Notes under the pieces: model-generated
Seen by the model: the letters and a program-made list of their open reading frames with translations, nothing else
Database searches by the model: none
Told to the model about the DNA's origin: nothing
Part shown: positions 5,266-13,959 of the stretch, piece by piece
Position numbering within the stretch: position 1 is the first letter of the stretch
How the letters are laid out: each line of letters begins with the position of its first letter
DNA from: an uncultured Flavobacteriaceae bacterium
GTDB lineage: Bacteria > Bacteroidota > Bacteroidia > Flavobacteriales > Flavobacteriaceae
Length of the DNA stretch: 64,000 nt
Reading direction: 5' to 3'
Assembly (NCBI GenBank): GCA_943788095.1
Contig: CALSOZ010000001.1
Coordinates: 62,001 to 126,000, forward strand
Position numbers and translations under genes: made by a program

Positions 5266-5344
5266 GTTATCTGGTATGAACCTGCAAGATAGTCATTTCA
5301 ATGTTAATTAAACGTTTCTAAAATTCAGTACATGGAACCACACC

Positions 5345-5411
5345 CTAACATTTTGTTAATGGTTTTGTAAACGTGATTTAACTTCGATAGGTACCTTAAG
5401 CTGTTAATTTG
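5345..5411 (+). promoter_or_regulatory. candidate Pho-box array and -7 box upstream of the beta-helix gene
   Basis: Four repeats follow each other every 11 bp: CTAACATT (5345), TTAATGGT (5356), GTAAACGT (5367) and TTAACTTC (5378). About 18 bp after the last one lies TTAATTTG (5404-5411), one mismatch from TAnnTTTG. Direct repeats with an 11-bp period just upstream of the core promoter are the known arrangement of PhoB and PhoP (Bacillus, TTAACA-like) sites. The two inner repeats are degenerate, so the match rests mostly on the spacing and on the better repeats further downstream in this block. Confidence 0.45.
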
Positions 5412-5437
5412 CAGTAACAATAATTAACTAAAAGAAA

Positions 5438-6688
5438 ATGAAAAAAACAATTTTTACTTTATCAGCAATTGCAGCACTTGCCTTTACTGGGTGTATGCAA
5501 GATGAAGCACCGCCAATTCTTGAAGATCCAGGAAACTCTGGTACTGTTGGGAACAATACTGTCTCTGTTTCTGGGATGATTTCAGAAAGTACGACTTGGA
5601 CAAATGACAATATTTATGTGCTTAATCAAAAAGTAGTGGTGCCAAGCGGAGTTGTACTTACAATACAAGCTGGAACTATAATTAAGGGAACTGAAGGCAC
5701 TGGTTCCTTAGCCTCTGCACTTATTATTGCTCAAGGTGGAAAATTAAATGCTGTAGGTACAGCAACAGAACCTATAATTTTCACGTCCATAAACGATAAT
5801 ATTGAGGTTGGACAAACAGCTGGAACTAATTTAGACGAAACTAATTCTGGACTTTGGGGAGGGTTAATCGTTTTAGGTTATGCTCCATCTTCGTTTTCTG
5901 GCGATGTAGATGTCGTTCAAATTGAAGGGATTCCTGCGGATGATACTTTTGGTCTTTATGGTGGTGAAGATGCTACTGATAATTCTGGAGTATATCAATA
6001 TATATCAATCCGTCATGGAGGCGCACTAATTGGAGAAGGAAATGAAATCAATGGCTTAACACTTGGTGGTGTTGGGTCTGGTACCATAATCGAAAATATC
6101 GAAGTGGTCGCAAACGTTGATGATGGTATTGAGTTTTTCGGAGGTACGGTAAATGCTACCAACCTATTGGTTTGGGCTCAAGGAGATGATGCCATCGATA
6201 TTGACCAAGGGTATTCTGGAATTATTGATAATGCCATTGTTATTTTAGGGGCTAACTCCGATCATGCATTTGAAATTGATGGTCCTGAAGGAACCGCAAC
6301 AGGTTCATTTACATTAAGAAACTCAACTATCGTTGGAAACTCTGTCACTGAAAATGGCGAATATGCAGATTACAGATCTAAGGCTATGGGAAGAACAGAA
6401 AACATATATGGTTACGGATTCAAAAGTTCTTCAGATGTGGAATTGGACAACGATGGGGTTGCCACAAACTATAATGATGGATTATTAACTTTTGGAGCAT
6501 GGGAAATTGTATTGCCTACTGGTGTTTCTGAGGTTACGGACATCTTTGTAAACAAAGCTGAGACGGTTGAGGTCAGTGGATTTGGTTCTACAACTACCGC
6601 TGTATCTGAAGGAGAAAATACTGTAGGCGCTACAACATCTCTTCTAAGCTGGACTTATGCAAATGCTAAAGCAGAATTAGGATTCTAA
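5438..6688 (+). CDS. right-handed beta-helix lipoprotein paired with a TonB receptor
   Basis: A 416-residue lipoprotein: signal peptide with lipobox FTGC (Cys19), a short acidic linker, then repeats typical of a right-handed parallel beta-helix (VVVPSGVVLTIQAGTIIKG, LIIAQGGKLNAVGT, GTIIENIEVVANVDDGIEFFGG). The Asp-rich DDGIEF and DDAIDID turns could bind ions. It lies directly before a TonB-dependent receptor gene, suggesting a surface lipoprotein that works with that receptor. Its position next to a phosphate porin and transporter, with similar upstream repeats, suggests a phosphate-limitation role; the substrate is not visible in the sequence. Confidence 0.8.
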   Translation: MKKTIFTLSAIAALAFTGCMQDEAPPILEDPGNSGTVGNNTVSVSGMISESTTWTNDNIYVLNQKVVVPSGVVLTIQAGTIIKGTEGTGSLASALIIAQGGKLNAVGTATEPIIFTSINDNIEVGQTAGTNLDETNSGLWGGLIVLGYAPSSFSGDVDVVQIEGIPADDTFGLYGGEDATDNSGVYQYISIRHGGALIGEGNEINGLTLGGVGSGTIIENIEVVANVDDGIEFFGGTVNATNLLVWAQGDDAIDIDQGYSGIIDNAIVILGANSDHAFEIDGPEGTATGSFTLRNSTIVGNSVTENGEYADYRSKAMGRTENIYGYGFKSSSDVELDNDGVATNYNDGLLTFGAWEIVLPTGVSEVTDIFVNKAETVEVSGFGSTTTAVSEGENTVGATTSLLSWTYANAKAELGF

Positions 6689-6710
6689 AAATAAGAATTA
6701 GTCAACTCAT

Positions 6711-6740
6711 CAATTGCTTGTGTTCATTCGCGAGCAATTG
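6711..6740 (+). other. stem-loop between beta-helix gene and TonB receptor gene
   Basis: CAATTGCTTGTG and CGCGAGCAATTG pair as a 12-bp stem (two G-U pairs) around a six-base loop, followed by a T-rich stretch. It sits 22 bp after the beta-helix stop and 21 bp before the receptor ATG. It could be a leaky terminator or an RNA-stabilising hairpin that gives more lipoprotein than receptor. The pairing is seen; the role is inference. Confidence 0.55.
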
Positions 6741-6761
6741 TTTGTTGTTTAAACACATACT

Positions 6762-9596
6762 ATGAAATTATACAAATTAACATCATTTTTACTAACAACT
6801 TTTCTTGCACTTCAACTCACAGCTCAATCTGGTAAAATTGTTGGTACCATTACAGACGGCGAATATAATGAACCTATGGCTTTTGCCAATGTACTGATTA
6901 AAAACACGACAACTGGAACCACTTCAGATTTTGATGGCAAGTATCAACTTGAGATTTCTGAAGGAAATTATACTATTGTGTTTTCTTATATCGGCTATCA
7001 ATCTGTTGAAATCTCGGATGTAAACGTTGAGGCAAACTCAGAAGTCCTTGTAGATGTAACACTTAATACAAACTCATTAGAAACTGTCATTATTACAACT
7101 ACGGTGAGAAAAAATACAGAATCTGCGGTATTAGATTTACAAAAAAAATCAATTACTTTATTGGATGGGCTTTCAGCTCAAGGGATTAAAAGTAGTGGCG
7201 CGGGTAATATAGCCAGTGCTGTTAAAAGTGTTCCTGGGGTATCCATTCAGGGTGGCAAATATGTGTATGTTAGAGGGTTGGGAGATCGTTATACTAAATC
7301 CATATTAAATGGTGTGGACATCCCTGGCTTAGACCCCGACAGAAACACAATTCAAATGGATGTATTCCCTACTAATATTTTGGAAAATGTTATTGTAATA
7401 AAATCTGCTGCCGCCGAATATCCTGCAGATTTTACAGGGGGCGTTATTGATATTGTTACCAAAGATTATCCAAGTAAAGAATCCTATACGTTTTCAATAG
7501 GAACATCCTATAATCCTAATATGCATTTAAACTCAAATTACTTGAGCTACAGTGGCAGTAAAACCGATTGGCTTGGTTTTGATGATGGTATGAGAAAAAG
7601 ACCGATAAACAGGTATCAACCCATTCCTGGTACATTTGCAAATTCGTCTGTTTTGACAGCGCTTACGGGAGCGTTCAATAAAGAATTAACCGCAAAAAGA
7701 TCAGAAAGTGGAGTGAATTATGACTTTGGATTTACAGCGGGAAATCAATATGAAGTTGGAGAAAACAAACTAGGGTATCAATTGTCTTTTTCTTACAAAA
7801 ATAAAACAGAATTCTACGACAACAGAGAGGACGGAACCTATATGAGGGATCAAAATAATGCGTCTAACAACGACCTATTGGCAACGCGAACGACTTTGGG
7901 AGAAGTTGGGGTGAATTCCGTATTGTTAAATGTGCTTACTGGACTCGTATACAAACGTGAAAATTCAAAATACAAATTAAACTTCCTTCATATACAAAAT
8001 GGTGAAAGTACCGCTGGAAAATACGAACAGCAACTTGCACAAGCAGGGGGTGGAAGTGGTTTTGAACCGATTTCAAAAGATGCACTCCTTTATACCGAAA
8101 GATCAATTTCAAATATTTTATTAGCAGGAACACATTCCTTTAGAGACAGTGGGTGGCAAATGGAGTGGAAACTATCACCATCTCTTTCTAGAGTGTACGA
8201 TAAAGATCACCGAATTACACCCTTACAATTGACTCAGGAAGGGAACGCTTTTATCAGTCCAAGCGCCTCAAGCTACCCTATAAGAATCTGGAGAACTCTC
8301 GAAGAGATTAACCTTGTTGGAAAACTTGATGTCAATAAAAAATATACGCTTTTTGACAACCCTGCAAAAGTTAAATTTGGTGGAGGATATACCTATAAAT
8401 TCAGAAATTTTAAAATTGATGATTATACGTTTACGATCACAAATCCAGTAACGGGGCTCTCTGTAGAAAATGGAGATGCAGATACCATATTGGCTGAAAA
8501 TAATATATGGACTCCACAAACAGGATCAGGAACACACTTAGTTACAGGCGATCTTTTTGAAAAAGCCAATGCCTACGAAGGGGAGCAACGAATCACGGCA
8601 ATGTATGCGTCAAATGAATTTAGTTTAACAGAAAAACTAAAAACAGTATTGGGCATACGTACAGAGTTATTTCAAACCTTTTATACAGGGCAAAACCAGG
8701 CAGCTACAGAAGTGTACAAAAATTCTAAAATAATAGATAAGTTTGATGTATTCCCATCTGCTAATATCATTTATAGCCTTACAGATGAACAAAACTTAAG
8801 GGCATCTTATTCAAGAACAACGGCACGTCCTTCATTTAAGGAAGCTTCAAAAAGTCAAATTTTTGATGCCATTACAAACCGTCTTTTTATTGGAAATATT
8901 GATTTGACGCCATCCTATATTAATAATTTTGATGTCCGTTTTGAAAAATTTGGAGAGGGGAGTGAAATGTTTGCTTTTAGTGGGTTTTACAAAGACTTCA
9001 CAGATCCCATAGAATTAACTTTTTACGAGTCAGCACCAGATCAAATAACGCCTAAAAACTTAGGTTCTGCAAAGGTTTATGGAATTGAGTTTGAATTTAG
9101 AAAATCATTAGGGTTTATTTTGGAAAGCTTAGATAAACTTAAGTTTAACATCAACGCCTCCTATATTAATTCAGAACTAACGATGAATATAGACGAGTAT
9201 AATAGACGTGTATTGGCGGCAAGAGATGGAGAGTCCATAGAAGATACAAGAGATTTACAAGGCCAATCGCCATTTCTTATCAATACAGGGCTAAACTACA
9301 ATAACTCGGACACAGGATTGCAAACGGGATTATTTTTTAATGTACAAGGCAAAACATTGGAAGTGGTAGGAACTGGAATTGTTCCAGATGTCTATACAAA
9401 ACCGTTTAGCAGCCTCAATTTTACACTTAACAAAAGTTTTGGCCAAGACAAAAAATCAACTATTGATGTAAAGGTCTCTAATATTCTTAACAGTAAAAGA
9501 GAGAGTGTTTATGAATCCTACAAAACTGCATCAAAAACGTTTTCTAGCTTCCAACCTGGTACAGAAGTGTCCATAGGGTATTCTTATAAATTTTAA
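6762..9596 (+). CDS. TonB-dependent outer-membrane receptor with carboxypeptidase-like N-domain
   Basis: A 944-residue receptor: signal peptide ending near LTAQS, a CarbopepD_reg-like domain (about residues 24-110, GTITDGEYNEPMAFANVLIK), the plug domain (about 120-240, SVPGVSIQGGKYVYVRGLGD and FPTNILENVIVIKSAA), then a long beta-barrel ending in aromatic F (SIGYSYKF), as required for outer-membrane insertion. It is co-directional with the beta-helix lipoprotein and separated from it by a stem-loop. Such pairs import or capture large or scarce substrates using TonB energy. Phosphate-related cargo is suggested only by the neighbourhood. Confidence 0.93.
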   Translation: MKLYKLTSFLLTTFLALQLTAQSGKIVGTITDGEYNEPMAFANVLIKNTTTGTTSDFDGKYQLEISEGNYTIVFSYIGYQSVEISDVNVEANSEVLVDVTLNTNSLETVIITTTVRKNTESAVLDLQKKSITLLDGLSAQGIKSSGAGNIASAVKSVPGVSIQGGKYVYVRGLGDRYTKSILNGVDIPGLDPDRNTIQMDVFPTNILENVIVIKSAAAEYPADFTGGVIDIVTKDYPSKESYTFSIGTSYNPNMHLNSNYLSYSGSKTDWLGFDDGMRKRPINRYQPIPGTFANSSVLTALTGAFNKELTAKRSESGVNYDFGFTAGNQYEVGENKLGYQLSFSYKNKTEFYDNREDGTYMRDQNNASNNDLLATRTTLGEVGVNSVLLNVLTGLVYKRENSKYKLNFLHIQNGESTAGKYEQQLAQAGGGSGFEPISKDALLYTERSISNILLAGTHSFRDSGWQMEWKLSPSLSRVYDKDHRITPLQLTQEGNAFISPSASSYPIRIWRTLEEINLVGKLDVNKKYTLFDNPAKVKFGGGYTYKFRNFKIDDYTFTITNPVTGLSVENGDADTILAENNIWTPQTGSGTHLVTGDLFEKANAYEGEQRITAMYASNEFSLTEKLKTVLGIRTELFQTFYTGQNQAATEVYKNSKIIDKFDVFPSANIIYSLTDEQNLRASYSRTTARPSFKEASKSQIFDAITNRLFIGNIDLTPSYINNFDVRFEKFGEGSEMFAFSGFYKDFTDPIELTFYESAPDQITPKNLGSAKVYGIEFEFRKSLGFILESLDKLKFNINASYINSELTMNIDEYNRRVLAARDGESIEDTRDLQGQSPFLINTGLNYNNSDTGLQTGLFFNVQGKTLEVVGTGIVPDVYTKPFSSLNFTLNKSFGQDKKSTIDVKVSNILNSKRESVYESYKTASKTFSSFQPGTEVSIGYSYKF

Positions 9597-9623
9597 TTGA
9601 ATTAGTCACTTGATTAGAAAACA

Positions 9624-9650
9624 AAAAAAGCACCCTTTCGGGTGCTTTTT
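9624..9650. terminator. bidirectional intrinsic terminator
   Basis: AAAAAAGCACCC and GGGTGCTTTTT form a strong hairpin with A and T tracts on the two sides. It separates the converging TonB receptor gene and MORN-repeat gene and can stop transcription from both. Confidence 0.85.
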
Positions 9651-9671
9651 ATATTCTATGTATTGGGTTCG

Positions 9672-10031
9672 TTAGTTCATGCTTATTGCAAGTTGCGACT
9701 TACGATCCCATTCACTAACATTCATAATTTTTGAATTTACAAAATCGACCTCTTTTAAAGAGTTTTCAGTCCAAAAAAACCATTTCCCTGTTTTGATTCC
9801 ATTACTGTAATTTCCTTGAGACAATTTATTTCCTTTAAAATCATAACTCGTCCAAAGGCCTTCTAAGGCTCCATTTTTATTGAAAGCTCCTTCTTGTTGA
9901 ACAGAACCATTATCATAATAATAAGTCGCAACAGTGAGTGGACCTTTTGTTTCTAATTTTGGTTGGTTTATGTTTTGAGCTGCTACGGTTGTTCCAATAA
10001 AAACTAGCGCAATTAGTATGTATTTTCTCAT
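9672..10031 (-). CDS. secreted MORN-variant repeat protein (YwqK-like)
   Basis: A 119-residue exported protein: signal peptide (MRKYILIALVFIGTTVAAQ) followed by three MORN-variant/YwqK-type repeats (YYDNGSVQQEGAFNKNG, SYDFKGNKLSQGNYSNGIKTGKW and the partial FFWTENSLKEVDF). Databases often label such proteins as toxin-antitoxin YwqK antitoxins, but nothing here suggests a toxin. The repeats form beta-hairpins of unknown role. It sits between the TonB receptor and the porin, facing away from the porin, so it may or may not belong to the phosphate block. Confidence 0.75.
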   Translation of the reverse strand: MRKYILIALVFIGTTVAAQNINQPKLETKGPLTVATYYYDNGSVQQEGAFNKNGALEGLWTSYDFKGNKLSQGNYSNGIKTGKWFFWTENSLKEVDFVNSKIMNVSEWDRKSQLAISMN

Positions 10032-10054
10032 ATCAATAATATTTACAATGTAAA

Positions 10055-10106
10055 GCTACAAAAAATTTACATTAAAAATACAATTAGTTTACATTAAATT
10101 AACATT
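10055..10106 (+). promoter_or_regulatory. candidate Pho-box array, five 11-bp-phased repeats
   Basis: Repeats start at 10055 (GCTACAAA), 10066 (TTTACATT), 10077 (AATACAAT), 10088 (TTTACATT) and 10099 (TTAACATT), exactly 11 bp apart; the second and fourth share TTTACATTAAA in full. This phasing is that of PhoB/PhoP direct repeats. It lies between the MORN gene start and the candidate small RNA, so it could act on either. Direct binding is inferred. Confidence 0.5.
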
Positions 10107-10167
10107 GAGAATTAGATTTAAAATGGTAAAATACGGTCAGGGTACAATTTGGAGGAATGTATTAGGT

Positions 10168-10222
10168 TTAATGATTACTTAACATTCTGCTTACGCTATA
10201 GACATGTTTAATTATAATCTTT
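10168..10222 (+). promoter_or_regulatory. candidate Pho-box array and promoter of the small RNA candidate
   Basis: TTAATGAT (10168), TTAACATT (10179) and CTTACGCT (10190) follow with an 11-bp period. Seventeen bases later comes TAATCTTTG (10215-10223), a -7-like element with one extra base between TA and TTTG. The order repeats-spacer-core promoter resembles the arrangement upstream of the beta-helix gene. No ORF follows before the terminator at about 10300. Confidence 0.42.
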
Positions 10223-10227
10223 GTAAT

Positions 10228-10327
10228 GTCTTAGACACATAATTAGTATCATTATTATGTATTAGTTTTTGTCGACTACAAAAATGATGATTTCTGATGA
10301 GCTGCCCTTGGCCAGGCAGCTTTTTTT
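10228..10327 (+). ncRNA. candidate small RNA ending at an intrinsic terminator
   Basis: A segment of about 100 nt lies between a promoter-like element and a strong terminator (AGCTGCC/GGCAGCT stem at 10300-10321, then seven T). It contains no convincing ORF. Its bases 10260-10274 are the exact reverse complement of 10386-10400, which is the leader of the porin mRNA ending 10 nt before the porin ATG. The RNA could therefore pair with that leader in trans or, in a read-through transcript, in cis. The start is estimated, not seen. It could instead be only an untranslated leader or a chance hairpin. Confidence 0.4.
10300..10327 (+). terminator. intrinsic terminator upstream of the porin gene
   Basis: AGCTGCC and GGCAGCT pair around an eight-base loop and are followed by TTTTTTT. 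It points along the plus strand although no plus-strand protein gene precedes it since the TonB receptor, whose own terminator is about 650 bp upstream. That is the reason to propose a small RNA here. Confidence 0.75.
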
Positions 10328-10347
10328 CATTCAATCTTAATCTTAAG

Positions 10348-10366
10348 GAAACATTAAGATAACATT
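10348..10366 (+). promoter_or_regulatory. candidate Pho box upstream of the porin gene
   Basis: GAAACATT (10348) and ATAACATT (10359) are spaced 11 bp apart. They precede a TTATTTG element at 10375-10381 that may be the -7 region of the porin promoter. The spacing to this element is shorter than in the two other arrays, so which promoter is used is unclear. Confidence 0.45.
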
Positions 10367-10410
10367 AGTTTGTGTTATTTGTACCCGACAAAAACTAATA
10401 ATACATTCTA

Positions 10411-11616
10411 ATGAAATTAAGAATTTTATCTATTGCAATAACTTTATTTGCAACCACCCTCGTTCAATCTCAAGAAATCAGTGATACTTCATTTGGAAAA
10501 GGGTTGATCAATTTTGTAGCAAAAGACAGCTCATTTAGTGTCAAATTTGCACCACGCTTCCAAGTGCGTTCTATGTCTTCATGGGACCATGACGGGAACC
10601 AGTACGGAAGTGCAGAACACAACTTCATCGTTCGTCGGTCTCGTTTAAAGTTTGACGGTTTTGCATACAGTCCAAAATTAAAATACAAGCTAGAGCTAGG
10701 GTTATCTAACAGAGACATTTCTGGTGCAAATCAATTCAATAGAAATACGCCTCGATATATTTTAGATGCCGTAATTATGTGGGAATTTTCGAAAAACTGG
10801 GAACTTTGGGCAGGTCAAACAAAACTACCAGGAAACGTGGAACGTGTTGTATCTTCTGCTAATTTACAGTTAATTGATCGTTCTTTACTAAACAGCCGAT
10901 TTAATATTGACCGAGATTTAGGAATCCAAATTCGTCACAAATCAAATTTAGGTGGTGACTTTCTAATGCGTGAAAAATTTGCCATATCACAAGGAGAAGG
11001 TCGAAATGTAACTGAAGGAAATGAAGGAGGATTACAATATACAGCCCGAGTAGAGTTTTTACCTTTTGGAGCCTTTAAATCCAAAGGTGATTACAGTCAG
11101 TCTGATCTTAAAAGAGAGAACACTTCAAAGCTAATGGTTGGGTTTACATACAATTTTAATGAAAATGCCGTTCGTGAGCGAGGCTTTGCAGGGGACTACA
11201 TGATTAGAACCGATGGAACTATTTTTGAAACCAACCAAACGACCACTTTTTTAGATGCAATGTTTAAACACAATGGGTTTTCATTTATGGGTGAATATGC
11301 CAAACGAACAGCAGTCCATGTAATAGCTACAGAAACTGATGGGGTAACTCCAACTGGTGATATTGTACTGACAGGAAAGGCTTTGAATTTACAGGCTGGA
11401 TACTTATTTAAAAGCAATTTCGAAATTGCTGGGCGTTTTACGACACTAGAGTACGAATCAATTACAGAAACACTTCCTTCTAAACAGTACACATTAGGAT
11501 TAAATAGATTTCTTGTAGGTCATAAACTAAAAGTTCAAAGTGATCTCAGCTATACCACTTTAGATGGTAAAAATGATAACATTACTTTCAGATTAGGGTT
11601 TGATATTCACTTTTAA
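10411..11616 (+). CDS. phosphate-selective porin O/P family outer-membrane protein
   Basis: A 401-residue barrel protein with a signal peptide (MKLRILSIAITLFATTLVQS) and the OprO/OprP family pattern. That pattern is an early FAPRFQVRSMSSWD strand, HNFIVRRSRLKFDGFAYSPKLKYKLELG, then WELWAGQTKLPGNVERVVSSANLQLIDRS (here split: WELWAGQTKLPGNVERV and LQLIDRSLLN), and a final amphipathic strand ending in F (LGFDIHF). OprP-type porins pass phosphate or polyphosphate through Arg/Lys-lined channels. The gene is followed after 69 bp by a phosphate permease, which supports the phosphate role. It lies downstream of 11-bp-phased repeats. Confidence 0.9.
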   Translation: MKLRILSIAITLFATTLVQSQEISDTSFGKGLINFVAKDSSFSVKFAPRFQVRSMSSWDHDGNQYGSAEHNFIVRRSRLKFDGFAYSPKLKYKLELGLSNRDISGANQFNRNTPRYILDAVIMWEFSKNWELWAGQTKLPGNVERVVSSANLQLIDRSLLNSRFNIDRDLGIQIRHKSNLGGDFLMREKFAISQGEGRNVTEGNEGGLQYTARVEFLPFGAFKSKGDYSQSDLKRENTSKLMVGFTYNFNENAVRERGFAGDYMIRTDGTIFETNQTTTFLDAMFKHNGFSFMGEYAKRTAVHVIATETDGVTPTGDIVLTGKALNLQAGYLFKSNFEIAGRFTTLEYESITETLPSKQYTLGLNRFLVGHKLKVQSDLSYTTLDGKNDNITFRLGFDIHF

Positions 11617-11618
11617 TC

Positions 11619-11637
11619 ATAACATTCGCTTAACATT
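11619..11637 (+). promoter_or_regulatory. candidate Pho box before the PiT gene
   Basis: ATAACATT (11619) and TTAACATT (11630) lie exactly 11 bp apart, right after the porin stop codon. This is the best-conserved pair in the block and suggests that the phosphate transporter has its own Pho-responsive promoter as well as read-through from the porin gene. Confidence 0.5.
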
Positions 11638-11685
11638 AAATTGAAAAACAAATTAGACATTTAACCAATAAACAAACAGGAAATT

Positions 11686-13959
11686 ATGGATAACATTTAT
11701 TTGTATATGATTATTGCCATTACCATATTAGCGGTGGCAGATATTATTGTAGGAGTGAGTAATGATGCAATTAACTTTTTAAATTCGGCGATTGGTTCCA
11801 AAGCCATCTCGCTTAAAACCATAATGATTGTGGCCAGTTTGGGAATTTTTGTTGGGGCAGTATTCTCTAGTGGAATGATGGAAGTCGCAAGAAAGGGGAT
11901 TTTTGTGCCTGGAGAGTTTTACTTTGATGAAATTATGTGCATTTTTATGGCGGTCATGATTACCGACATCTTGTTACTTGATTTCTTTAACACTTTAGGT
12001 TTACCAACTTCAACGACGGTTTCAATTGTGTTTAATTTACTTGGTGCAGCAGTTGTAATGGCCTTAATAAAAATCAGTGTTTCTGATACTGAAACAATTT
12101 CAGATTTAAGTAAATATATAAATACTGAAAAAGCCATTACCATCATAGGCGGTATCTTATTATCTGTATTTATTGCCTTCAGTGTTGGGGCTTTCGTTCA
12201 ATGGATCTCCAGACTAATTTTTACGTTTCAAATCGAAAATAAAATAAAAAACTTTGGACTATTTTTTGGTGCTATTGCACTCACAGCAATTACCTATTTT
12301 ATATTCCTGAAAGGCTTAAAAGGAACCCCCTACTACAAAGAGCTGAAACAAACCTTAGAAGGTAATGAAACTTATATCATTTTGGCAAGTTTTCTTTTTT
12401 GGTTATTCGTTTCATTTGTATTTGAAAAGATTACAAAGAAAACCATTCTATTAGTCGTTATTGCAGTTGGAACCTTTGGTTTAGCTCTGGCATTTTCTGG
12501 AAATGACTTGGTCAATTTTATTGGTGTTCCGATGGCGGCTTACCACTCCTATGAAGCATGGTCTGTCTCTGGTGTTGATGCTAGTCTATTTTCTATGGAA
12601 GTCTTAGACAAAAAAGTACCTGCAGAACCATTGTTATTATTTATCTCAGGAGGCATTATGGTTGTAACTCTTTGGTTTTCAAAGAAAGCTAAAACCGTAG
12701 CCGAAACTGAGATTAGCTTATCACGTCAAGGAGATACACGCGAAAAATTTGAGCCAAATGCCATTTCAAGAGGAGTTGTAAAAGGGGCCTCAAAATTGTC
12801 TGATTATTTGAGTGTTATTTTACCTAAATCTGTTCAAGGAAAAATTAATAAAAGTTTTGAAAAACCTAAGAGTGTATCAAAAACAGAAAGCATAAATGCC
12901 CCCGCTTTTGATATGATTCGTGCTTCTGTTAATTTAATGATTGCTGGCGTATTAATTGCTGTCGCAACCTCTCTAAAGCTACCGCTATCCACCACTTATG
13001 TCACATTTATGGTGGCTATGGGAACTTCGTTTGCCGATCGTGCTTGGGGATCAGAAAGTGCTGTTTACCGTGTCGCTGGTGTGTTAAATGTGATAGCGGG
13101 ATGGTTTGGAACTGCTATTGGTGCGTTTATAGCTTCTGGAACAGTAGTGTTTTTAGTGAATTGGAACCCAGCAGTAATGATTCCTATTTTCTTATTGATT
13201 ACGATCTTTTTAATTTACAGAAACTATAAATCTCATAAAGAAAATACCGAAAAACTAAGTGATGAAGATAGTTTAAAAGAAACAGGGAGCAAATCTGTTC
13301 AGGGCGTGATTTATGAAAGTGCTACAAATATTGCTACGGTAATTAAAAGAGGTAATCGGATCTATAGCAACGCCGTAAACGGCTTATCACAGCAAGATTT
13401 AAGTTTGCTTAAGAAAAATAAAAAACAGGTCTCTAAGTTATCTGATGAAGTTGATAGTTTACGAGATAATATTTTTTACTTTATCAAAAACTTAGAAGAG
13501 ACGAGTCTAAGAGCGAGTAGCTTTTATATTAATATTTTAGGATTCTTACAGGACATGACACAATCATTAGAGTATATTTCTAAAGTTAGTCACAAACATG
13601 TTCAAAATAATCATAAGAAATTAAAATTCAATCAAATTAAAGAATTGAATCAAATAAGTGACGTTATCGAACAACTCTTTTCTGAAGCTCACGATGCTTT
13701 CAAAACACAATCTTTTGAAAAAATTGAATCTGTTTTAAAGAGTAAATCTGAGATTTATAGTATTCTAAAATCTAATATCGAACTCCAAGTAAAACGTACG
13801 CGAACCGAGGAGTCAAGTCCTAAAAACACAACACTCTATTTTACTTTGTTATTAGAAACAAAGGATCTCATGAACGCAGCAATGAACTTGTTAGAAGAAT
13901 ATCATACTCAGCATGACAGCAGTATTGAACCCGCTAAAATTGTGGATGACAAACAGTAA
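11686..13959 (+). CDS. PiT-family inorganic phosphate transporter with PhoU-like C-terminal region
   Basis: A 757-residue inner-membrane symporter. The two inverted PiT signatures are present: GVSNDAINFLNSAIGSKA near residue 25 and LPLSTTYVTFMVAMGTSFADRAWG near residue 430 (split as LPLSTTYVTFMVAMG and TSFADRAWG). About ten hydrophobic segments surround them. After the last membrane helix (about residue 510) comes a soluble, coiled-coil-rich tail of about 240 residues (LRDNIFYFIKNLEETSLRA, LLLETKDLMNAAMNLLEEY). Its helical pattern resembles PhoU proteins, which in other bacteria are separate subunits next to pit genes. The fusion suggests built-in regulation of phosphate uptake. Confidence 0.92.
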   Translation: MDNIYLYMIIAITILAVADIIVGVSNDAINFLNSAIGSKAISLKTIMIVASLGIFVGAVFSSGMMEVARKGIFVPGEFYFDEIMCIFMAVMITDILLLDFFNTLGLPTSTTVSIVFNLLGAAVVMALIKISVSDTETISDLSKYINTEKAITIIGGILLSVFIAFSVGAFVQWISRLIFTFQIENKIKNFGLFFGAIALTAITYFIFLKGLKGTPYYKELKQTLEGNETYIILASFLFWLFVSFVFEKITKKTILLVVIAVGTFGLALAFSGNDLVNFIGVPMAAYHSYEAWSVSGVDASLFSMEVLDKKVPAEPLLLFISGGIMVVTLWFSKKAKTVAETEISLSRQGDTREKFEPNAISRGVVKGASKLSDYLSVILPKSVQGKINKSFEKPKSVSKTESINAPAFDMIRASVNLMIAGVLIAVATSLKLPLSTTYVTFMVAMGTSFADRAWGSESAVYRVAGVLNVIAGWFGTAIGAFIASGTVVFLVNWNPAVMIPIFLLITIFLIYRNYKSHKENTEKLSDEDSLKETGSKSVQGVIYESATNIATVIKRGNRIYSNAVNGLSQQDLSLLKKNKKQVSKLSDEVDSLRDNIFYFIKNLEETSLRASSFYINILGFLQDMTQSLEYISKVSHKHVQNNHKKLKFNQIKELNQISDVIEQLFSEAHDAFKTQSFEKIESVLKSKSEIYSILKSNIELQVKRTRTEESSPKNTTLYFTLLLETKDLMNAAMNLLEEYHTQHDSSIEPAKIVDDKQ

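Follow-up and report, generated by a model that had tools for sequence, protein, structure and literature searches.

Proteobacterial PhoB and Bacillus PhoP boxes are direct repeats with an 11-bp period that lie upstream of phosphate genes and replace the upstream promoter element, and direct repeats are the usual binding sites of OmpR-family regulators. At the RNA level, the small RNAs MicF and MicC repress porins. The phosphate block described here, which lies in a 64-kb window (the whole stretch of DNA analyzed), shares with the PhoB and PhoP boxes the 11-bp direct repeats before phosphate genes in place of an upstream promoter element. It differs from them in its TTAACATT-like unit, in the Bacteroidota TAnnTTTG -7 element, and in the number of phased units, which can reach four or five. 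As with MicF and MicC, a short terminated RNA is predicted to pair near the start of a porin mRNA, whereas the candidate RNA of the window is encoded immediately 5' of its target, in the same orientation, with its own predicted Pho-type promoter.

Two close systems come from Bacteroidota. PhoB of the Bacteroides fragilis PhoRB system bound the pst promoter in gel shifts with a 512-bp fragment, for which the part of the report drawn on here gives no binding sequence (PMC3547664). In F. johnsoniae, phoBR neighbours the genes of a lipoprotein and of a TonB receptor that are both strongly Pi-induced, and the window contains a similar pair, without orthology being implied; OprP was not induced there, and the main text of that report contains no DNA motif, Pho box, or small RNA (PMC8115612). 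No published Pho-box DNA motif for flavobacteria was found in the literature searched.

Based on the repeats, their targets, and the adjacent RNA candidate (Table 1), it is probable that the arrays are PhoB-type operators and that one of them, P2, drives a small RNA pairing with the porin leader. Under phosphate limitation, PhoB would occupy the 11-bp direct repeats head-to-tail at the would-be -33 position and recruit polymerase to the TAnnTTTG-type -7 element. The beta-helix/TonB operon would thereby be switched on together with the genes for the porin and PiT, joined in this lineage by that for dGTPase. The P2 array would drive an RNA of about 100 nt, stopped by an intrinsic terminator, that would base-pair to the 5' leader of the porin mRNA made from P1 and most likely limit porin translation, forming an incoherent feed-forward loop.

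Table 1. Features of the phosphate block and the PhoB-type regulator gene (window positions unless another contig is named).
Feature	Position	Strand	Details
dGTPase promoter box	5284..5318	-	units 5318-5308 and 5307-5297, then CTTGC 5288-5284 (offset 19); third-best window match, 22.4 bits
Degenerate 11-bp array, beta-helix promoter	5345..5412	+	units 5345, 5356, 5367, 5378, phased with TTTGC 5408
Predicted surface lipoprotein ("beta-helix" in the initial annotation)	5438..6688	+	ORF; no Pfam or NCBIfam match
TonB-dependent receptor	6762..9596	+	Pfam plug, barrel, and CarbopepD_reg_2 domains
Small MORN-like exported protein	9672..10031	-	weak MORN_2 match, under its cut-off
Four-unit array at MORN promoter	10066..10106	+	orientation opposite to MORN; top window match, 24.9 bits
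P2, predicted small-RNA promoter	10168..10224	+	units 10168, 10179, 10190, 10201, phased with TTTGT 10220
Candidate small RNA	10227..10328 (about)	+	about 100 nt; ends inferred
Small-RNA seed TATTAGTTTTTGTCG	10260..10274	+	complement of 10386-10400
Predicted small-RNA intrinsic terminator	10299..10328	+	10 of 11 pairs with changes on both sides
P1, predicted porin promoter	10337..10382	+	units 10337, 10348, 10359; TTTGT at 10378
Porin leader CGACAAAAACTAATA	10386..10400	+	predicted to pair with seed of candidate small RNA
Porin_O_P family porin	10411..11616	+	Pfam PF07396
PiT promoter units	11619..11664	+	11619 and 11630, phased with poor -7 element TTTAA 11660; second-best window match, 22.5 bits
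PiT-type phosphate transporter	11686..13959	+	Pfam PHO4
PhoB-type response regulator gene	other contig, L097:9840-10529	minus	

The phased repeats that the initial annotation had reported are real: TTTACATTAAA reads at 10066 and 10088, ATAACATT at 11619, and TTAACATT at 11630, units were also confirmed at 5345, 10168/10179, and 10348/10359, and a matrix from other genomes puts the top matches of the window there. The proposed array start at 10055 (GCTACAAAAAA) is a poor unit, and the true start of that array is 10066. The top seven matches of this operator matrix, trained on other genomes, all fall within arrays, with 10088, 11619, 5318(-), and 10348 ranked first, followed by 10337, 10077, and 10066. 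At a spacing of 11 bp, six window positions reached at least 13 bits, versus 0-2 at any of ten alternative spacings (8-10 and 12-18 bp), and 40 windows simulated with a Markov model averaged 0.65 such positions and never exceeded 2. By matrix alone the weaker arrays are unremarkable (9.6 bits at 10179, below 8 bits at 5345), and those at 5345 and 10168/10179 rest on their exact phase with TTTGC (5408) and TTTGT (10220) and on the relatives.

On held-out loci of relatives, 113 positions were found at the 11-bp spacing versus 3-22 at twelve other spacings, an about nine-fold specificity obtained, like the target counts below, from relatives that share ancestry and are not independent, with permutation controls that ignore ancestry. 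Matrix matches were intergenic in 274 cases and coding in 17, counts that take in the training loci. The beta-helix promoters of relatives carry units at -19, -30, and -41 relative to 55 TTTGC anchors, porin P1 has a unit at -30 in 95% and at -19 in 88% of 75 anchors, and PiT promoters have units at -30/-41 from the -7 element. The porin and beta-helix repeats are thereby placed 19/30/41 bp before the predicted Bacteroidota -7 element, like those of PhoB-activated promoters.

Sequence comparison among relatives ties the 11-bp spacing to the beta-helix/TonB pair, MORN, the porin, PiT, dGTPase, and some pstS genes. The box was present in all 32 MORN regions of relatives and, in independent loci, in 25/25 such regions. 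In 58 regions, 40-99 nt separated the best pair from the start codon. A second target test, run on 69 independent loci, found boxes at 13 of 14 porin genes. The scan upstream of pstS, phoX, and pit genes proposed in the initial annotation was positive in part for PiT (17/39 relatives, 20/33 in independent loci) and for pstS (5/16, versus 0/30 for recA; 1/14 for weak PstS-like proteins), and was mostly negative for PhoX (PF05787), with a box at one of 10 clear and none of 17 weak matches, three further weak ones being excluded because their upstream DNA was too short. Some clear PhoX genes seem to sit inside operons. In 20 genomes a composite pattern gave a raw count of 34 matches versus 24 for the reversed control; 30 of the 34 match loci were read, one more match lay within one of them, and three were left out, and the matches at start codons belonged to porin, pstS, and beta-helix genes.

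The initial annotation missed the reverse orientation of 10066-10106 at the MORN promoter and the divergent dGTPase box 5318(-). The reversal suggests a different effect on MORN, perhaps repression. In independent loci, 21 of 35 dgt genes had an own-direction site, versus only one above 11 bits, a beta-helix neighbour, among 26 dgt genes from other chosen genomes, 14 of which exceeded 11 bits in the opposite direction; the own-direction dGTPase box is therefore specific to the clade of the window. The use of dGTPase as a negative control was dropped on account of these own-direction boxes.

The array at 10168, assigned earlier to the porin, precedes a terminator instead and should therefore drive the small RNA, whose region folds with a z of -2.98. 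The promoter and terminator expected of a base-pairing small RNA are present, on sequence criteria, as P2 and the intrinsic terminator. A covariance model of the RNA, R1, found it in 118 of 249 sampled genomes of the window's family (123 model matches, 89 loci read), with the porin just downstream in 75/89 loci read. A P2 box of at least 11 bits occurred at 57 and a P1 box at 74 of 77 relatives. No Rfam family matched 10227-10330 with the E-value limit relaxed to 1, and a class-wide R1 scan, whose strict filters may miss weak relatives, returned 4/395 genomes, all four in the window's own family. The RNA stems covary, although two slid controls matched the structure in both-side-changed cells (49 and 45 versus 48). 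Fifteen bases of the RNA are complementary to the porin mRNA leader, and across the duplex 1124/1264 cells were paired versus 1085 +/- 5.5 with permuted leaders, a control that ignores ancestry.

Simple counts were barely enriched: on the plus strand of the 64 kb, a consensus count favoured 11 bp only mildly, and a two-unit pattern with one mismatch showed no excess in the partial genome (6 matches versus 9 for the reversed control). Such counts would suit chance features of AT-rich promoters, an extremely improbable origin given the nine-fold held-out specificity, the target specificity, the absence of boxes at recA, and the -7 phase; chance or generic promoter sequence was ruled out by the held-out spacing tests together with recA, nrd, phoR, and receptor-gene controls. 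It is also quite unlikely that another OmpR-family regulator binds the arrays, with phosphate entering only through the transported substrate. Direct repeats are common to this family, an RprY-like regulator is its only other member found in the partial genome, and boxes are mostly absent at PhoX; against this, phoB-phoR adjoins the beta-helix/TonB pair in 13/58 relatives, boxes are present at pstS, and the similar F. johnsoniae pair is Pi-induced (PMC8115612). The lipoprotein adjoins the receptor in all 58 loci, and a phoB match occurred in 21 of the 69 independent loci. The name PhoB here means best model match plus synteny: the best two NCBIfam models for the protein are both PhoB (TIGR02154, 213.2 of 296.2 bits; NF053854, 208 of 270 bits), and it lies under both curated cut-offs. 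The region upstream of this phoB scored only 7.3 and 9.7 bits. Comparison favours the suggested flavobacterial Pho box in its 11-bp direct repeats, geometry, targets, phoB synteny, and recurrence at the pstS and porin genes of other genomes, with PhoX mostly dissenting. Placing the lipoprotein and receptor in the Pho regulon fits, and is not new in view of, the F. johnsoniae data, in which the uninduced OprP counts against the main reading (PMC8115612).

For the RNA, it is unlikely that it is a long P2 5' leader of the porin mRNA, with the terminator attenuating and the seed folding back on the downstream leader. The RNA does lie on the same strand directly 5' of the porin in most loci, and read-through would unite both pairing partners; yet P1 starts just before the paired leader, so a P1 mRNA would lack the upstream half, and the RNA is kept without a following porin in a few loci (L360, L423). 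Possible, though doubtful, is that the RNA covers the 5' end of the porin mRNA and in this way activates or protects the message rather than repressing its translation: the paired bases are placed at the very 5' end inferred for the mRNA and both transcripts are predicted under one signal, but the pairing stops 10 nt short of the start codon and should hinder ribosome entry. Returning to the PhoB-driven repressing RNA, there is about an even chance that the phosphate porin is under dual PhoB control in the window's family (118/249 sampled genomes), through its own promoter and an adjacent dedicated small RNA, with the reversed array turning MORN the opposite way. If so, the RNA would represent a new family and a hard-wired feed-forward loop would govern how phosphate enters at the outer membrane, raising the question of why porin and pairing RNA are made under one signal. 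The operator matrix is testable for the phosphate regulon of a large family, in which Pi-starvation genes would become predictable from sequence, and the widespread RNA outside Rfam has a specific predicted porin target. In 20 genomes, an exact 13-mer matched the small RNA, the porin leader, and five other places (G104, G248, G071, and two in G061).

The repeats from which the initial annotation had proposed a Flavobacteria Pho box are present in the window where it placed them. A simple count of consensus pairs mildly favoured a spacing of 11 bp in the window, and in the partial genome (G000; 1.74 Mb, 75% complete) a two-unit pattern was not more frequent than its reversed control. Taken by itself, the window is only suggestive of repeats beyond chance; at the level of sequence, the question is settled by the relatives.

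Features of the phosphate block of the window
Feature	Position	Strand	Remark
dGTPase gene		minus	
-7-type element of dGTPase	5288		CTTGC
-7-type element, phased	5408		
Beta-helix gene	5438-6688		predicted surface lipoprotein
TonB-dependent receptor gene	6762-9596		partner of beta-helix gene
MORN-like small protein gene	9672-10031	minus	
P2, putative small RNA promoter	array from 10168		
-7-type element, phased	10220		
Candidate small RNA	about 10227-10328		
Seed of small RNA	10260-10274		
Intrinsic terminator	10299-10328		
P1, porin promoter	units 10337-10359		
-7-type element, phased	10378		
Leader, inferred start of porin mRNA	10386-10400		
Porin_O_P porin gene	10411-11616		
-7-type element, phased	11660		poor, TTTAA
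PiT transporter gene	11686-13959		

A first set of 58 loci from other genomes, chosen by receptor match, was searched for T(T/A)(A/T)ACATT pairs in the 300 bp upstream of every gene. Pairs spaced by 11 bp occurred on the array strand in all 32 MORN regions versus 4-16 of them for the remaining spacings within 8-16 bp, in 18/21 porin and 17/39 PiT regions, and in 18 (forward) and 20 (reverse) of 57 beta-helix regions. The receptor-gene regions, serving as control, held them in 2 and 1 of 58, and none was found upstream of nrdA (0/19) or phoR (0/13). With a matrix trained on 47 sites from the even-numbered loci, the held-out odd-numbered loci gave 113 positions of at least 13 bits at spacing 11 versus 3-22 at twelve other spacings. 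Sites of at least 11 bits in all 58 loci, training loci included, numbered 274 in intergenic DNA (138 kb) versus 17 in coding DNA (998 kb). In the window, this matrix ranked 10088, 11619, 5318 (minus) and 10348 highest.

An independent set of 69 loci (80 among the matches listed, minus 11 overlapping earlier loci) was scored for regions holding a site of at least 13 bits. Such sites were found in 25/25 MORN, 13/14 porin and 20/33 PiT regions, in 21/35 dGTPase regions in the gene's own direction, and in 29 (forward) and 24 (reverse) of 66 beta-helix regions; there were none for the receptor (0/69), phoR (0/19), nrdA (0/12) or nrdB (0/9). Sphingobacterium and Parapedobacter loci (L224, L225, L243 and L270) also held beta-helix upstream sites of at least 13 bits; seven such loci presumably lie outside the family, judging by their genera, and four of the seven carried a beta-helix site. 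Because of these sites, the box may predate the family. Opposite-direction sites of at least 11 bits lay in 14/26 dgt upstream regions (L315-L340; compare 5284-5318, minus, in the window), and dGTPase genes were frequently divergent to box-bearing genes, with porin-region genes as neighbours in G032 and G201.

The sigma-A -7 element of Bacteroidota is given as TAnnTTTG in PMC9723704. With TTTGC as anchor, units lay at -19, -30 and -41 in 60, 38 and 38% of 55 beta-helix anchors (all-offset mean 6%) and in 71, 86 and 67% of 21 porin anchors (mean 10%). For PiT (25 anchors) the values were 80% at -41 and 56% at -30, for dGTPase only weak peaks appeared (29% at -30, 21% at -19), and no peak at these three offsets was seen for the receptor gene. 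All window arrays except that of MORN are exactly in phase with a -7-type element. Repeats stand at such a phase to the -7/-10 element in PhoB-activated promoters, whose layout the window arrays resemble. The MORN array is oriented opposite to its gene and, by eye, precedes the TATATTTG-like element of MORN itself; in each of the 58 aligned regions, its best pair was separated from the start codon by 40-99 nt (search span 140 nt). By analogy with PhoP boxes in reverse orientation, the reversed MORN array may be repressive. In many relatives, a CTGATTTTCAG-type palindrome with imperfect symmetry follows just past this array.

The partial genome encodes two OmpR-family regulators, one RprY-like and one best matched by NCBIfam PhoB models, albeit below their curated cut-offs. 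Orthologs of the latter adjoin the beta-helix/TonB pair in 13/58 loci, a match to it occurs in 21/69 further loci, and the matrix scan gave no strong site upstream of phoB in G000 (7.3 and 9.7 bits). Low Pi strongly raises a receptor and a lipoprotein adjoining phoBR in F. johnsoniae (values of 8.02 and 9.91 in the table), and OprP is listed with no rise (-1.3, P 0.245; PMC8115612). This pair is likened to that of the window by gene kinds, and its induction is consistent with the earlier placement of the beta-helix lipoprotein and TonB receptor in the Pho regulon, where the window pair would respond likewise. The label beta-helix comes from the initial annotation; the lipoprotein had no match in Pfam or NCBIfam. 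In B. fragilis, gel shifts are reported in which PhoB bound the pst promoter (PMC3547664).

Beyond the block, the proposed Pho box was seen at part of the pstS genes and hardly at PhoX: a box of at least 13 bits preceded 5/16 clear pstS genes, 1/14 weak PstS-like genes, 1/10 clear and 0/17 weak PhoX matches, and 0/30 recA genes. Several boxless pstS genes appeared by eye to lie directly 3' of another gene, some seemingly a porin. A two-unit-plus-TTTGC pattern had 34 matches in 20 whole genomes versus 24 for the reversed control, so that this count by itself says little. Among the matches read, nine lay outside other genes with a start codon at most 50 nt away, ahead of six porins (identified by similarity to the window porin), one pstS, one beta-helix gene and one carboxypeptidase-domain ORF near a porin.

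Since an intrinsic terminator separates the 10168 array from the porin, transcription driven by this array would be expected to yield an RNA of about 100 nt. Within the candidate small RNA (fold z -2.98) lies TATTAGTTTTTGTCG, which is perfectly complementary to CGACAAAAACTAATA at the inferred start of the porin mRNA; predicted folds leave the seed's 6-nt loop mostly unpaired. The duplex energy in the window was -32.8 kcal/mol versus -17.1 +/- 3.4 with the RNA shuffled. Of 32 gene starts tested, that of the porin was the best partner. The seed was present in 29/36 porin-upstream regions (window counted) and missing from the remaining seven; the leader complement of seed-bearing regions spanned 10-21 nt versus shuffle means of about 7-8.

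At E 0.01, a covariance model, R1, built from 27 sequences matched 118/249 genomes of the family, usually with a single match per genome; at least 18 of the 118 had contributed training rows. Among 89 match loci read, 77 had a porin match, 75 of them at 30-171 nt downstream and two elsewhere. These 77 carried a box of at least 11 bits at P1 in 74 and at P2 in 57 cases, and their leader complement reached at least 11 nt in 58 and exceeded all 40 shuffles in 61. In relatives, P1 units stood at -30 in 95% and -19 in 88% (75 anchors), and P2 units at -41, -52 and -30 in 82, 72 and 72% (68 anchors). Among the 12 loci without a porin match, the RNA preceded a porin that lay farther off and shared the leader in L344 (Pfam-checked) and L365, a distant Porin_O_P protein with a matching base change in its leader in L406, and PiT directly in L381 and L419; the remaining loci lay at contig ends, had decayed or offered no clear partner.

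Pairing was compared across 79 unique RNA/leader pairs, after removal of 27 cases (AAAAC core missing from the leader in 13, no porin in 12, distance too great in two). The duplex paired 1124/1264 cells versus 1085 +/- 5.5 with leaders permuted among genomes (maximum 1101 in 500), with T-A/A-T swaps at three positions. The stems of the RNA paired 81.3% of cells versus 77.3 +/- 0.7 shuffled and 31-54% slid, the structure being derived from the very sequences tested. Stem cells changed on both sides numbered 48 versus 25 shuffled, but two of the slid controls gave 49 and 45; shared ancestry remains in both kinds of control.

In the proposed mechanism, PhoB would activate P1, P2, the beta-helix operon and PiT, and the small RNA would limit porin translation by covering the leader to a point 10 nt short of the ATG; the existence of the transcript, binding by PhoB and the direction of RNA action are inferred. 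The small RNA had no match in Rfam, and searches of an open-access library turned up neither a Flavobacteriaceae Pho box nor a small RNA of such a kind. L360 and L423 retain the RNA with no porin behind it, the P2 box of L360 being strong (31.0 bits), which possibly reflects other targets or recent porin loss. Five extra exact copies of a porin-leader 13-mer lie off the RNA locus (G104, G248, G071 and G061) and could be chance or second targets.
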